A stretch of 27,544 nt of DNA from Saccoglossus kowalevskii (taxonomy: Eukaryota > Hemichordata > Enteropneusta > Harrimaniidae): positions 86,250 through 113,793 of the forward strand of contig NW_003126888.1 in NCBI RefSeq assembly GCF_000003605.2, in the 5' to 3' direction. The first letter of the stretch is position 1. The number at the start of each line of letters is the position of its first letter. Below the pieces are notes generated by a model. It saw only the letters and a program-made list of their open reading frames with translations. It was not told the origin of the DNA and did not search any database. A program made the position numbers and the translations under genes. Positions 2,067 to 22,375 of this stretch are shown here, one piece after another.

Positions 2067-2439
2067 GCTGGCCGATAATTGTATGCACCTACCTTCTAAA
2101 GTGTTTTCAATATACACATAGTTAAAGTCAGCTCTGTAGCCAATGATGAAACTCAGTGTTTTTTGTTTTTCTGTGTGGCTGTAGTTTCTGCTGGTAAAAT
2201 GATGCAGCACTAAGATTAAAATTTTCGCAAACAGCGATGAAACACTGCATGTGATTGGCCAGTGACATACGTATTATTATAATCGACATTATTTACAGTC
2301 GTTCATTTCTGAGATCTATTAATTGTATGGTAGTAGTATATATAAGTATAGTTCCGTTTTTGATATTTTTAGATAAGATAGGGAATGCAAAGGTTTAAAT
2401 GTAAATATGATGCTATTAACTATGACCTCACATACAGTC

Positions 2440-3111
2440 AGTAATATCCTGATAACTCGCCTTACACAGTAAATGACCACTCACCTGTCACAGTGAGTAA
2501 CTTGATAACTCGCCTCCCAGACAATAATATCCTGATAACTCGCTTCATACAGTGATTGACCACTCGCATGTCACACAGTGACTAACTTGGTAACTCACCT
2601 CCCAGACAATAATATCCTGATAACACGCCTCATACAGTTTATGACCACTCACCTTTCACAGTGAGTAACTTGATAACTCGCCTCCCAGACAATAATATCC
2701 TGATAACTCGCCTCGTACAGAGAATGACCACTCACCTGTCACACAGTGAATAACCTGGTAACTCACCTCCCAGACAATAATATCCTGATAACTCGCTTCA
2801 CACAGTGATTGACCACTCACATGTCACACAGTGACTAACTTGGTAACTCACCTCCCAGACAATAATATAATGATAACGCGCCTCATACAGTTTATGACCA
2901 CTCACCTTTCACAGTGAGTAACTTGATAACTCGCCTCCCAGACAATAATATCCTGATAACTCGCCTCGTACAGAGAATGACCACTCACCTGTCACACAGT
3001 GAATAACCTGGTAACTCACCTCCCAGACAATAATATCCTGATAACTCGCCTCATACAGAGAATGACCACTCACCTGTCACAGTGAGTAACTTGATAACTC
3101 ACTTCCCAGTC
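2440..3111 (+). repeat. 83/85-bp minisatellite with 253-bp higher-order repeat
   Basis: Eight units start at 2440, 2523, 2608, 2691, 2776, 2861, 2944 and 3029, with lengths 83, 85, 83, 85, 85, 83, 85 and 83. The length change comes from CACAGTGA against CACACAGTGA. Each unit contains three diverged sub-repeats that start with CAG and end in ACTC(G/A)CCT. Units 2-4 (2523-2775) and 5-7 (2776-3028) form two copies of a 253-bp block with about five differences, and the last units of each block are identical. Degenerate tails continue to about 3215. Confidence 0.9.
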
Positions 3112-3529
3112 AATAATTGCCTGCACGTAGTCAATAACATAACTCATCTCACAGTCAATGAACACTTGCTTCGTGCAGTTTAAAACCTGAAAACTCACAC
3201 AGTCAATAAACGCCATATTGTCAGCTTAGTGTTTACCTCTTGTGCTAAAATGGTAATGTATAATTTTAAATAAATTTGTACAACTACAAGAATATCACTG
3301 CATAAATAATGCTGCTTTGACGTCATTTCAATATTAGACATGAAGATAAATAAATTATTATTGATGCATTTGTTGAATAAATATTAATGCCAGTTTGTTT
3401 GTCTGTTTTATTACATAACACTATTCACATTATTGATTTCAATCTCATGAGTAGGAATTACTCAATGAATCCACAAGAGTTGTATTTTTGACTCCTGTAT
3501 GTGAAGCACACAATGAGTAATTGCAGTTA

Positions 3530-3530
<1 letters not shown>

Positions 3531-3581
<51 letters not shown>

Positions 3582-3619
3582 TTCTGTGTCTGTCTGTCTG
3601 TCTGTGTTGTCTGTGTGTG

Positions 3620-3670
<51 letters not shown>

Positions 3671-3770
3671 GTCTGTCTATCTGTGTCTGTCTGTCTGTCT
3701 ATCTGTGTCTGTCTGTCTGTCTATCTGTGTCTGTCTGTTGTCTGTCTGTCTGTCTGTATGTGTGTGTATG
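3531..3770 (+). repeat. (TCTG)n microsatellite
   Basis: About 240 bases of TCTG are broken by TGTG, CTAT and TTTC variants, grading into TATG/TGTG at the right end. Two overlapping ORFs that read as repeats of Cys-Leu-Ser-Val come from this array and are not genes. The array is followed directly by a copy of the AT-rich element seen at 1-620. Confidence 0.95.
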
Positions 3771-13675: not shown

Positions 13676-13745
13676 CATAGTCAAATACTATTCTAAGAAA
13701 CAAAACAAAAATAATAAAAAGAATAAAAAAGAAAAAAAGAATGAT

Positions 13746-13795
13746 NNNNNNNNNNNNNNNNNNNNNNNNNNNNNNNNNNNNNNNNNNNNNNNNNN
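13746..13795. other. Assembly gap (50 N) with duplicated flanks
   Basis: Fifty N bases. The 33 bases left of the gap (13713-13745) and the 34 bases right of it (13796-13829) are the same A-rich sequence with a one-base indel. The gap probably joins overlapping contig ends, so the true sequence may lack the gap and one copy of the flank. Confidence 0.95.
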
Positions 13796-13829
13796 AATAA
13801 AAAGAATAAAAAAGAAAAAAAGAAATGAT

Positions 13830-17324: not shown

Positions 17325-17494
17325 AATGTTCATATTCAGAAAACGATTGTTTGTATTACGTGGGCGAAAGACGGCATCGCCCAATTGAAGAAGTTTTCGG
17401 AGTTTTTGCTCGCAGTGATTTAAAATCACAGACGATTGGATAAGTGTGCACCTCATCAACAGCGCAGTGCTGGCAGACGAGCAATTTCGAAATT

Positions 17495-19603
17495 ATGGCG
17501 GCGGGAACGAAGAATGAAAATTCGTACAAACCCATGAAAGGCAAGTCGACAAGATCTCCGATATGTTTTGTGTGCGGAAGTGAAGGCGCGTATTGTCAAA
17601 CCAACAGCCGGGTGCGAGGTAAGGAACCGTTTTTCTCGTTCCTTGAATACCACGAACCGCCTTCAGGCGCCCGACCTCTCAACCAAGACGGGACTGTCGA
17701 AGCATGCCAAGTTTGCTATGCGTTTTTGATTCAACAATGGCACGCTTTTGAGCGTACGAACACGCCTATAGTTAAACGCTTGTACTGGTTGAAAAGGTCT
17801 GGAGGGGGTGGGGCTGACAAGCCGGACCCGCAAATGCAAGTAAGCCAACAAGCCAGGGAGGAACTTTACAAGTTAAAACTACACGATGTCGACAATCTTA
17901 AACGCCACTACGAGGATCAAGACCAGGGAATTATAAACGCGAACAAGCAAAATGGTGCCCCGGAAAAGAGGTATGAAATTCGAACGCCCAGTCGTGATCG
18001 TGAACGCGTGAGCAAAGGCAAGTCCCCGGCTGTGAACGGGAAAGAAGTCAAACAAATGGAAGTGTGTTTTTGTTGTGGTAGGAAGAGACCTAAAGAGTGC
18101 GTGAGGGCTGTCAACACTAGGTATCAGCTCCAACTCAACACAGGAACTCCATTTTACCCTTCGCTTCAAAATCACACGCCTTTTCCAGGGGCCAAGCCAC
18201 CCGACTTTAGTGGCAAAATAATGACATGCGAAGAGTGCGAACAATTTTTATTCCGACAGTGGCAAGTTTATCAGGATCGTAACGTGGCACTTCATGAACG
18301 AAGATATCAGTTGCGAAGTGCTGAAACAAGTGTGTCCACCAACGAGGAGCCTGGAATGTTGGCTACTATGGTGTGCTTCCTGTGTGGTATCACCCAACCA
18401 GCCACATCTGGTAGATTCATTTACTCCAAGAAACACACAGAAGGTGACCCTTATTTTGCTTTCCTTGAGAATTTCAATCCTCCACCTGGTGCCATGCCGC
18501 TCACTGCGCAGGGACTAACTAGAGTGTGCAGTACTTGTCATAAGGCCCTTCGTCGGCAGTGGAAAGCTTATGAAGTAACAAATTTACCTGAAGAAAATCG
18601 GGTATATCAAATACGGAATGAGTCATTCAGAAAATTACCACCTGTACTTTCGTCGGAAACTACTGCCTTGGGGAAACTAAGTGAACCATCACAGGAAGAG
18701 ATATGTTACCTTTGCTCCCAGGTGTTTCCAAGATCTAATATTCGATATGTGCACACCTTGGCTCCTGATAAAACCAGCAAGCATATAATGTACTTCCCTT
18801 TTATTATTAATTTTAAATGTTCTCCCAGAGCTAAAGCAATTGACGAAGAGGGCAGAATATTGGCCTGTGAAACGTGTTATTTTACTCTTCAGCAGCAGTG
18901 GCAAATATACCAGTCTGAAGGAATTCCACTTACTGATAGACGGTACAATTTACGCCCTGTAGAACATGGAACACCCCATAGGCTAACTATGGAGGATGAA
19001 TCGGAATCTCAGTTGCAGTTGCCTTCTCCTGTTCTGCCAAGTCGCGAGTCAAGTCTGACAGTTAGTCATACGGTCAAAGATGGGTGTTTTGTTTGTGCTA
19101 CACCAGTCAAAATGACAGAGAGATACCAACTTTGTGCTTACCCTGCCAAAGGCGAGTCTCCAGGGGGACCGTTTTTCCCTTTTCTTGCCCACCGTGATCC
19201 CGCATCAAATGCGATACCTATGGATAGTGAGGGGGTTGTCATTTCTTGTACCATCTGTTACCATAACTTAGTCTGCCAGTGGGACGAATATGAAAATTCA
19301 AACGGCCTACGAGATTCAAATCGATGGTTACGTAGATACTGCATTTACAACATGGTTTGTTACCTCTGTACAAAATTAGTTATGCGAGGCAAGGTGAAGA
19401 CAGTGGAGATACAGAAATACCCATGCATTGCAGAGATAGATAAACCTAAAGGTGCTATTAAAATGGGAGGCATGGTACTGGTGTGTGGGACATGTGAGAT
19501 ATCACTCATCCGGCAGTGGACTGCATTTGAACATAGCCAAGTTCCTTCTGATAAGCGCAGATACAGTTTCAACTTCACCAGCAATAATATTAGTGCACAA
19601 GAG
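17495..19603 (+). CDS. Six-module cysteine-rich CxxC/QW repeat protein, first coding exon (3' partial)
   Basis: This open exon encodes 703 residues and continues into a later exon. The first in-frame ATG is at 17495, in a good context (A at -3, G at +4). An in-frame stop lies at 17441-17443, and the codon at 17444 is GTG, which is not an animal start. The protein holds six diverged copies of one module: CxxC, 38-50 residues with an aromatic block (PFFSFL, PFYPSL, PYFAFL, PFFPFL) and a P-GA-P motif, then CxxC-x6-QW-x2-(Y/F)-(E/Q) and a closing R-x-Y. Four cysteines per module suggest zinc binding; this is inference. Linkers are charged or Ser/Pro-rich. No signal peptide or membrane segment is visible, so an intracellular, perhaps nuclear, role is likely. 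The reading frame runs into GAG|GTAAGT at 19603/19604, a strong donor, and the TAA at 19616 is then intronic. I do not recognise the family and assign no function. Confidence 0.9.
17564..19570 (+). other. Array of six tandem CxxC...CxxC-x6-QW protein modules
   Basis: Numbering is from the ATG at 17495. Module 1 is residues 24-101 (C24/C27, C71/C74, QW 81-82). Module 2 is 191-273 (C191/C194, C245/C248, QW 255-256). Module 3 is 294-374 (C294/C297, C345/C348, QW 355-356). Module 4 is 404-487 (C404/C407, C458/C461, QW 468-469). Module 5 is 531-616 (C531/C534, C585/C588, QW 595-596). Module 6 is 622-692 (C622/C625, C664/C667, QW 674-675). The step from the last cysteine to Q is 7 in all six. The cysteine-pair gap is 43, 50, 47, 50, 50 and 38 residues. 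Module 6 is the shortest: it lacks the aromatic PFL block but keeps the GA and the CxxC-x6-QW core. All 24 core cysteines are present, so no module has lost its presumed metal site. Confidence 0.85.
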
Positions 19604-19609
19604 GTAAGT
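19604..19609 (+). other. Splice donor ending the main coding exon (phase 0)
   Basis: The sequence GAG|GTAAGT fits the animal donor consensus exactly on the intron side. It falls between two codons (Glu 703 and the next), so the following exon should begin in phase 0. If the site were ignored, the protein would end four residues later at the TAA at 19616-19618. No later exon carrying another CxxC-QW module was seen before 27544. Confidence 0.75.
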
Positions 19610-19714
19610 GGGATTTAAATTGACTTTCACAAGAAATTGATGCTAACTTATTTTTCACCTGTTAAATATGTATGTATGTTGTATAAGACTGTCTCCTTGG
19701 TAGCCTCCAAACTA

Positions 19715-19904
19715 CTGTAGAATACTTTATTTCGCTATTTTCGCTGAAGGGATGATTCAGTGAAAATAAAAACCAGCGAATATACCTTTTTTCCTATATT
19801 TCACATTAAACTCATCAAAAATCAGTGAAAATAAATTCCATACAAAATGTCCAAAAAGCCTTTTCAGCGAAAATTAATTCCAGCGAAAATAAAGTATTCC
19901 ACAG
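19715..19904 (-). mobile_element. MITE copy A, TA-flanked, about 190 bp
   Basis: The left end CTGTAGAATACTTTATT and the right end, which in reverse complement reads CTGTGGAATACTTTATTT, form inverted termini of about 22-25 bases. Each end abuts a TA dinucleotide (19713-19714 and 19905-19906), as expected for Tc1/mariner-type target duplication. The interior repeats short GCGAAAATAA blocks. It matches copy B in the opposite orientation and has no coding capacity. Confidence 0.75.
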
Positions 19905-20820: not shown

Positions 20821-21004
20821 CTGTGGAATACTTTATTTTCCCTGAAAAAGCTTTTTGGGTGCTTTGTATGGAATTTATTTTCACTGATTTTTGATGAGTT
20901 TAATGTGAAATATAGGAAAAAAAGTATATTCGCTGGATTTTATTTTCATCCTTTCAGCGAAAATAGCGAAAATAAATTCCATGCGAAAATAAATTATTCT
21001 ACAG
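20821..21004 (+). mobile_element. MITE copy B, TA-flanked, inverted relative to copy A
   Basis: It starts CTGTGGAATACTTTATTTTC, ends TTATTCTACAG, and has TA at 20819-20820 and 21005-21006. The internal block with TTTGTATGGAATTTATTTTC and TTTTTGATGAGTTTAATGTG is the reverse complement of the corresponding block of copy A, and nearly the full length pairs. The 184-base length against 190 in copy A reflects small indels. Confidence 0.75.
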
Positions 21005-22262: not shown

Positions 22263-22375
22263 CTGTGAAATACTTTGTTTTAAGCTGGAATTAATTTTCA
22301 CTGAAAAGACATTTCAACTTTTTTGCAAAGTTTATTTTCACTGATATTTGATGAGTTTGTTTTTGGTTGTGACAT
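22263..22375 (+). mobile_element. MITE copy C, 3'-truncated or decayed
   Basis: After a TA at 22261-22262 it starts CTGTGAAATACTTTGTTTTA and continues with blocks like GCTGGAATTAATTTTCACTG and TTTATTTTCACTGATATTTG, in the same order and orientation as copy B. Similarity fades after about 22375, and no right terminus was found. Confidence 0.6.

Follow-up and report, generated by a model that had tools for sequence, protein, structure and literature searches.

In human cells, genetic suppressor element 1 (GSE1) is a binding partner of the CoREST complex (HDAC1/2, LSD1, RCOR1/2/3 and HMG20A/B), and binding of USP22 to this complex requires GSE1, which is therefore proposed to act as a scaffold (PMC10681733). 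We analyzed a stretch of 27,544 nucleotides from the hemichordate Saccoglossus kowalevskii (hereafter the window; C1943:86250-113793 of a 572-Mb genome in 4830 contigs), in which a single exon encodes six copies of a four-cysteine module. This exon lies upstream, on the same contig and strand, of the only matches in that genome to the Pfam family of GSE1, PF12540 (DUF3736); GSE1 is a subunit of HDAC1/LSD1/CoREST complexes. The exon differs from that family in carrying an array that matches no Pfam family, and its joining to the downstream exons is a prediction. We propose, with a probability of about 0.6, that it is a 5' coding exon of GSE1 whose six zinc modules form a protein-docking array. 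The other described systems to be considered are the ZADs (zf-AD; Grauzone 1PZW, ZNF276 7PPP), dimerization and nuclear-import domains of the kind found N-terminally in fly C2H2 factors, and the HNH (4H9D), GATA (3VD6, 4HC7) and VAL PHD-like (5YUG) domains.

An old array of six modules

The reading frame of the exon is open over 17444-19618 in the open reading frame (ORF) list of the window and runs into a consensus donor (Table 1), consistent with the original prediction of a single exon. The six predicted modules were confirmed, from the first cysteine at 17564 to the last R-x-Y at 19556-19564. The ORF contains six instances of the pattern C-x2-C-x(38-50)-C-x2-C-x6-QW, and a search of all six frames of the window found no CxxC-x6-QW outside these. 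Shuffling the ORF 5000 times gave a mean of 0.0008 copies of CxxC-x6-QW and none of the full pattern, while a degenerate DNA pattern found exactly 6 sites against 0.00 expected. All 15 module pairs scored 11.3-30.7 standard deviations above shuffled sequence. With the window protein as query, a single locus of the genome was matched (one match at E <= 0.001). Since these searches score the best candidates only, very diverged extra copies are possible.

A pattern of 15 specified bases, run against the genome_contigs collection (84,980 species), matched one contig, twice. This contig, CALHGQ010000039.1 (hereafter L001, 3052 bp), is filed under the metagenome-assembled genome (MAG) of an uncultured bacterium. 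It has an open frame of 950 codons that encodes five complete modules (1-5) and breaks off halfway through module 6, at an apparent splice donor. Because of this intron-like end, and because no other contig of the collection fits the pattern, we read L001 as stray animal DNA, probably a contamination of the bacterial MAG bin. A tblastn search with the window protein against L001 by itself gave an E value of 7e-42, and the L001 protein gave four matches in the S. kowalevskii genome at E <= 0.001, all four inside the six-module exon.

The tree of the 11 complete modules from the two sources had long branches and left their relationships unresolved, and the order of the modules was judged by score assignment in its place. 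When the five complete L001 modules were paired with those of the window, the in-order arrangement was the single best of 720. By best single score, all five L001 modules chose their own counterpart and four of five window modules did so, the exception being window module 4, for which L001 module 2 gave the higher score. The incomplete sixth module of L001 (21 residues) scored 37, 36 and 34 with window modules 3, 2 and 6, respectively, and decides nothing since window module 6 is not its top score. In the window, the second CxxC of one module is separated from the first CxxC of the next by 120, 49, 59, 73 and 37 residues; the corresponding values for L001 are 211, 44, 62, 194 and 35. The tandem expansion that had been predicted is thus ancient, a second animal-type sequence keeping modules 1-5 in identical order. 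The modules themselves are also old, because pairwise dN (nonsynonymous divergence) among the window copies reaches 0.70-1.02 and dS (synonymous divergence) could be computed in only two of the 15 pairs, the remaining 13 having no value.

The strict retention of motifs claimed for the modules was overstated. In the alignment of the 11 complete modules (1 of 12, the partial L001 module 6, being omitted), the four cysteines are indeed invariant and are the only invariant positions; Q and W are each found in 10 of 11, the exception in both cases being L001 module 3, where QW has been lost. The aromatic block PFxxFL is present in its strict form, P[FY][FY]xF[LI], in three of the six window modules and in a relaxed form in five, module 6 having none. 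The literal P-GA-P motif is limited to modules 1-3, and the R-x-Y ending is in register in five modules, module 5 having N-R-W instead.

Two other features of L001 were noted. An apparent intron lies within module 6 (L001 2689-2745), where the window exon is continuous, and a linker contains ALDLS (L001 892-906), similar to the CtBP-binding motif PxDLS; no such match was found in the window protein.

Predicted fold and comparison with known zinc domains

No Pfam family exceeded its cut-off with the window protein, any of its six modules, any of the 11 modules from the two sources or the L001 protein, the best sub-threshold match being LIM (E 0.02, in one of the 11 modules). NCBIfam (prokaryotic families) gave no match, the window protein matched no sequence of the PDB, and PDB profile searches reached at best E 0.62 with the six-module profile and 0.56 with the 11-module profile, so that no sequence relation to the HNH, GATA and VAL PHD-like structures was found. 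The module, real and ancient, thus matches no family in the libraries that were searched, in agreement with the original prediction, which knew of no named zinc-finger class built on CxxC-x6-QW. Viral contigs gave nothing in single-protein scans with the window and L001 proteins or with the long motif pattern, and plasmids and phages gave nothing with the window protein in tblastn. One viral contig matched by a different pattern was a chance match, the frame at the site being full of stops. A literature search, covering titles and the beginnings of abstracts, with subscription papers mostly beyond reach, found no account of the module and none of a GSE1 with an N-terminal array. Many matches to "GSE1" were probably GEO accession numbers.

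The AlphaFold2 model of module 3 is confident (pLDDT, the predicted local distance difference test, 95.9; pTM, the predicted template modeling score, 0.84). It places the first cysteine pair at C4/C7, strands at 17-20 and 51-54, a short helix at 32-36, and a long helix (56-71) that begins at the second pair, C55/C58. This is a treble-clef-like layout, with an N-terminal CxxC, strands and a second CxxC opening a helix, and in the model it fits the structural metal site that had been predicted; the module is probably zinc-binding and treble-clef-like. The predicted QW/aromatic surface fared less well. L62 and W66 stand at i/i+4 of the long helix and F31, F33 and L34 in or beside the short one, a placement that suggests a hydrophobic core, and in this model the conserved aromatic and QW residues are more likely core than a common binding face.

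The VIA-align comparison listed 17 rows, comprising eight HNH, three GATA, two ZAD, two PHD-like and two other folds. The alignment to 1pzw paired module residues 2-74 with 2-72, ranges compatible with the cysteine register, and the C-x2-C ... C-x2-C motif of ZADs, with predicted zinc ligation, is present in all 11 modules. The modules could thus be very divergent ZADs in tandem, which would be compatible with a place in GSE1, but we consider this improbable. The HNH and GATA structures score within 1 Z of ZAD, and no ZAD is found among 24 Foldseek matches. Against the Grauzone sequence, used singly, hhalign returned a probability of 0.4%, and zf-AD was not listed in the Pfam scans of the window protein, the six and 11 modules and L001 at a limit of E 10, the HMMER filters discarding most matches above about 0.1. 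The Arg that directly follows the first cysteine in 81 of 93 fly ZADs (PMC5081699) is replaced by F, Y or L in all 11 modules. The presence of six tandem copies also sets the array apart from ZADs, and the Pfam scan of the exon found no C2H2 match. ZADs are not known to carry QW or PFxxFL.

The same list of GATA fingers and HNH nucleases, together with the R-x-Y closing five of the six window modules, could suggest a DNA- or RNA-binding array of HNH- or GATA-like treble clefs. We regard this as the most doubtful of the alternatives, as only the four cysteines are invariant among the 11 modules; every histidine column stays below 7/11, and the sole basic column reaching 7/11 is the R of R-x-Y, at 9/11.

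Position upstream of the GSE1 matches

Beyond the window, the six-module exon (ending at C1943:105852, + strand) is upstream of the only two DUF3736 matches of the genome, which score 65 and 33 bits (cut-off 22.6 bits) and lie 106 kb downstream of it. PF12540 is the sole family mapped across this genome; it had no match in 14 control genomes, and the chance that a randomly drawn position lies on this 279-kb contig is about 1 in 2000. Further pieces upstream of the two matches (Table 1) appear to resemble human GSE1. The exon containing TSSFAAALRKLAKQA is preceded by a T-rich tract and CAG that read as a splice acceptor in phase 1, so that GSE1 should have one or more additional 5' exons here, whether coding or noncoding. 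With its consensus donor, the six-module exon is the natural candidate, and we consider it likely that it belongs to the GSE1 gene of this animal.

Several observations weigh against this assignment. The phase-0 donor cannot be joined directly to the phase-1 acceptor, and an intermediate exon is thus needed. The first GSE1-like exon also holds an in-frame ATG, so that an upstream coding exon is not obligatory. In addition, 95 kb with several gaps separate the two, and the six-module exon alone has no DUF3736 match in the Pfam scan. The exon could therefore be part of a separate gene upstream of GSE1, encoding an independent multi-treble-clef adaptor whose own downstream exons would lie in the gaps or in sequence left unread. 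We find this unlikely, if less so than the ZAD and nucleic-acid alternatives, given the shared contig and strand, the right order and the uniqueness of the GSE1 match in the genome, as well as the apparent acceptor of the first GSE1-like exon, which indicates that some 5' exon is missing. The ORF lists covered C1943:113500-183499 (ORFs of at least 70 residues, with N gaps) and C1943:193500-211999 (85 residues or more) and extended to 213784, with 183500-193499 left out.

Table 1. Features of the six-module exon (window positions) and of the GSE1-like region (positions on contig C1943).
Feature	Position	Strand	Remark
Coding part of one exon, 703 codons	17495..19603	+	ATG at 17495; phase-0 GTAAGT donor after 19603
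Module 1 (CFVC...CQVC-x6-QW...KRLYWLKR)	17555..17803	+	best partner of L001 module 1
Long charged linker, modules 1-2	17804..18055	+	same spacing also longest in L001
Module 2 (CFCC...CEEC-x6-QW...RRYQLR)	18056..18321	+	
Module 3 (CFLC...CSTC-x6-QW...RVYQIR)	18365..18619	+	copy modeled by AlphaFold2
Module 4 (CYLC...CETC-x6-QW...RRYNLR)	18695..18961	+	
Module 5 (CFVC...CTIC-x6-QW...NRWLRRY)	19076..19345	+	
Module 6	19349..19585	+	shortest; without PFxxFL block
GTAAGT splice donor	19604..19609	+	GT at 19604-19605; by eye; remaining gene outside window
GSE1-like exons	C1943:200980-213180	+	95-107 kb downstream of the exon's donor; exons counted include the SSFAAALRKLAKQA exon and the DUF3736 exons
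GSE1-like piece TSSFAAALRKLAKQA	C1943 ~201.1 kb	+	ORF list
GSE1-like piece STPPVVTIAPT	C1943 ~202.3 kb	+	ORF list
RERERE run, low complexity	C1943 ~209.2 kb	+	ORF list
GSE1-like piece EEKWQLKQRQLRMQKEERQ	C1943 ~210.8 kb	+	ORF list
DUF3736 match	C1943:212042-212284	+	PF12540 profile search
DUF3736 match	C1943:212989-213180	+	PF12540 profile search

Elsewhere in the window, the intron 3' of the exon contains an inverted pair (19761-19877 and 20832-20948, arms of 117 nt, 92% complementary). By eye, both copies resemble a miniature inverted-repeat transposable element whose ends are AATACTTTATTTTCGC-like, and the start of a third, incomplete copy can be seen near 22263. An 85-base unit is repeated in tandem about eight times at 2435-3117, a GTCT tetranucleotide run of about 61 copies occupies 3530-3765, and a short N run (X in the ORF list) lies at about 13745-13800. 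Scanning the window for Rfam families and tRNAs gave no match.

A putative docking platform

As the probable 5' coding exon of GSE1, the exon would encode an N-terminal array of six small C4 (four-cysteine) treble-clef-like domains joined mostly by flexible linkers. A single structural zinc would be held in each module by two CxxC knuckles, one near the N-terminus and the other where the long helix begins, while the helix would be packed onto the knuckle by the conserved Leu, Gln-Trp and aromatic residues. Instead of reading DNA, the six domains could act as separate protein-docking modules that bring in partners or link several complexes, with the divergence outside the conserved residues suggesting a different partner for each. 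A scaffold that begins with six folded modules, diverged from one another and each on its own linker, would fit a multivalent docking platform, attached in this animal to a presumed member of the CoREST complex.

We know of no such array in human GSE1. We tentatively suggest, at somewhat less than even odds, that GSE1 of the ancestral animal had two parts, the N-terminal one being a multivalent recruiting platform of six treble-clef-like modules of a new family built into the CoREST scaffold, that vertebrate GSE1 lost this array or passed it to another gene and that many invertebrates may keep it. Should the exon belong to a separate gene, it would still encode an ancient, order-conserved array of a C4 treble-clef-like domain that has no family in Pfam. 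If it is joined to GSE1, a poorly understood co-repressor scaffold would gain a folded, six-fold repeated part outside Pfam, and with it a direct route to asking what GSE1 docks to.
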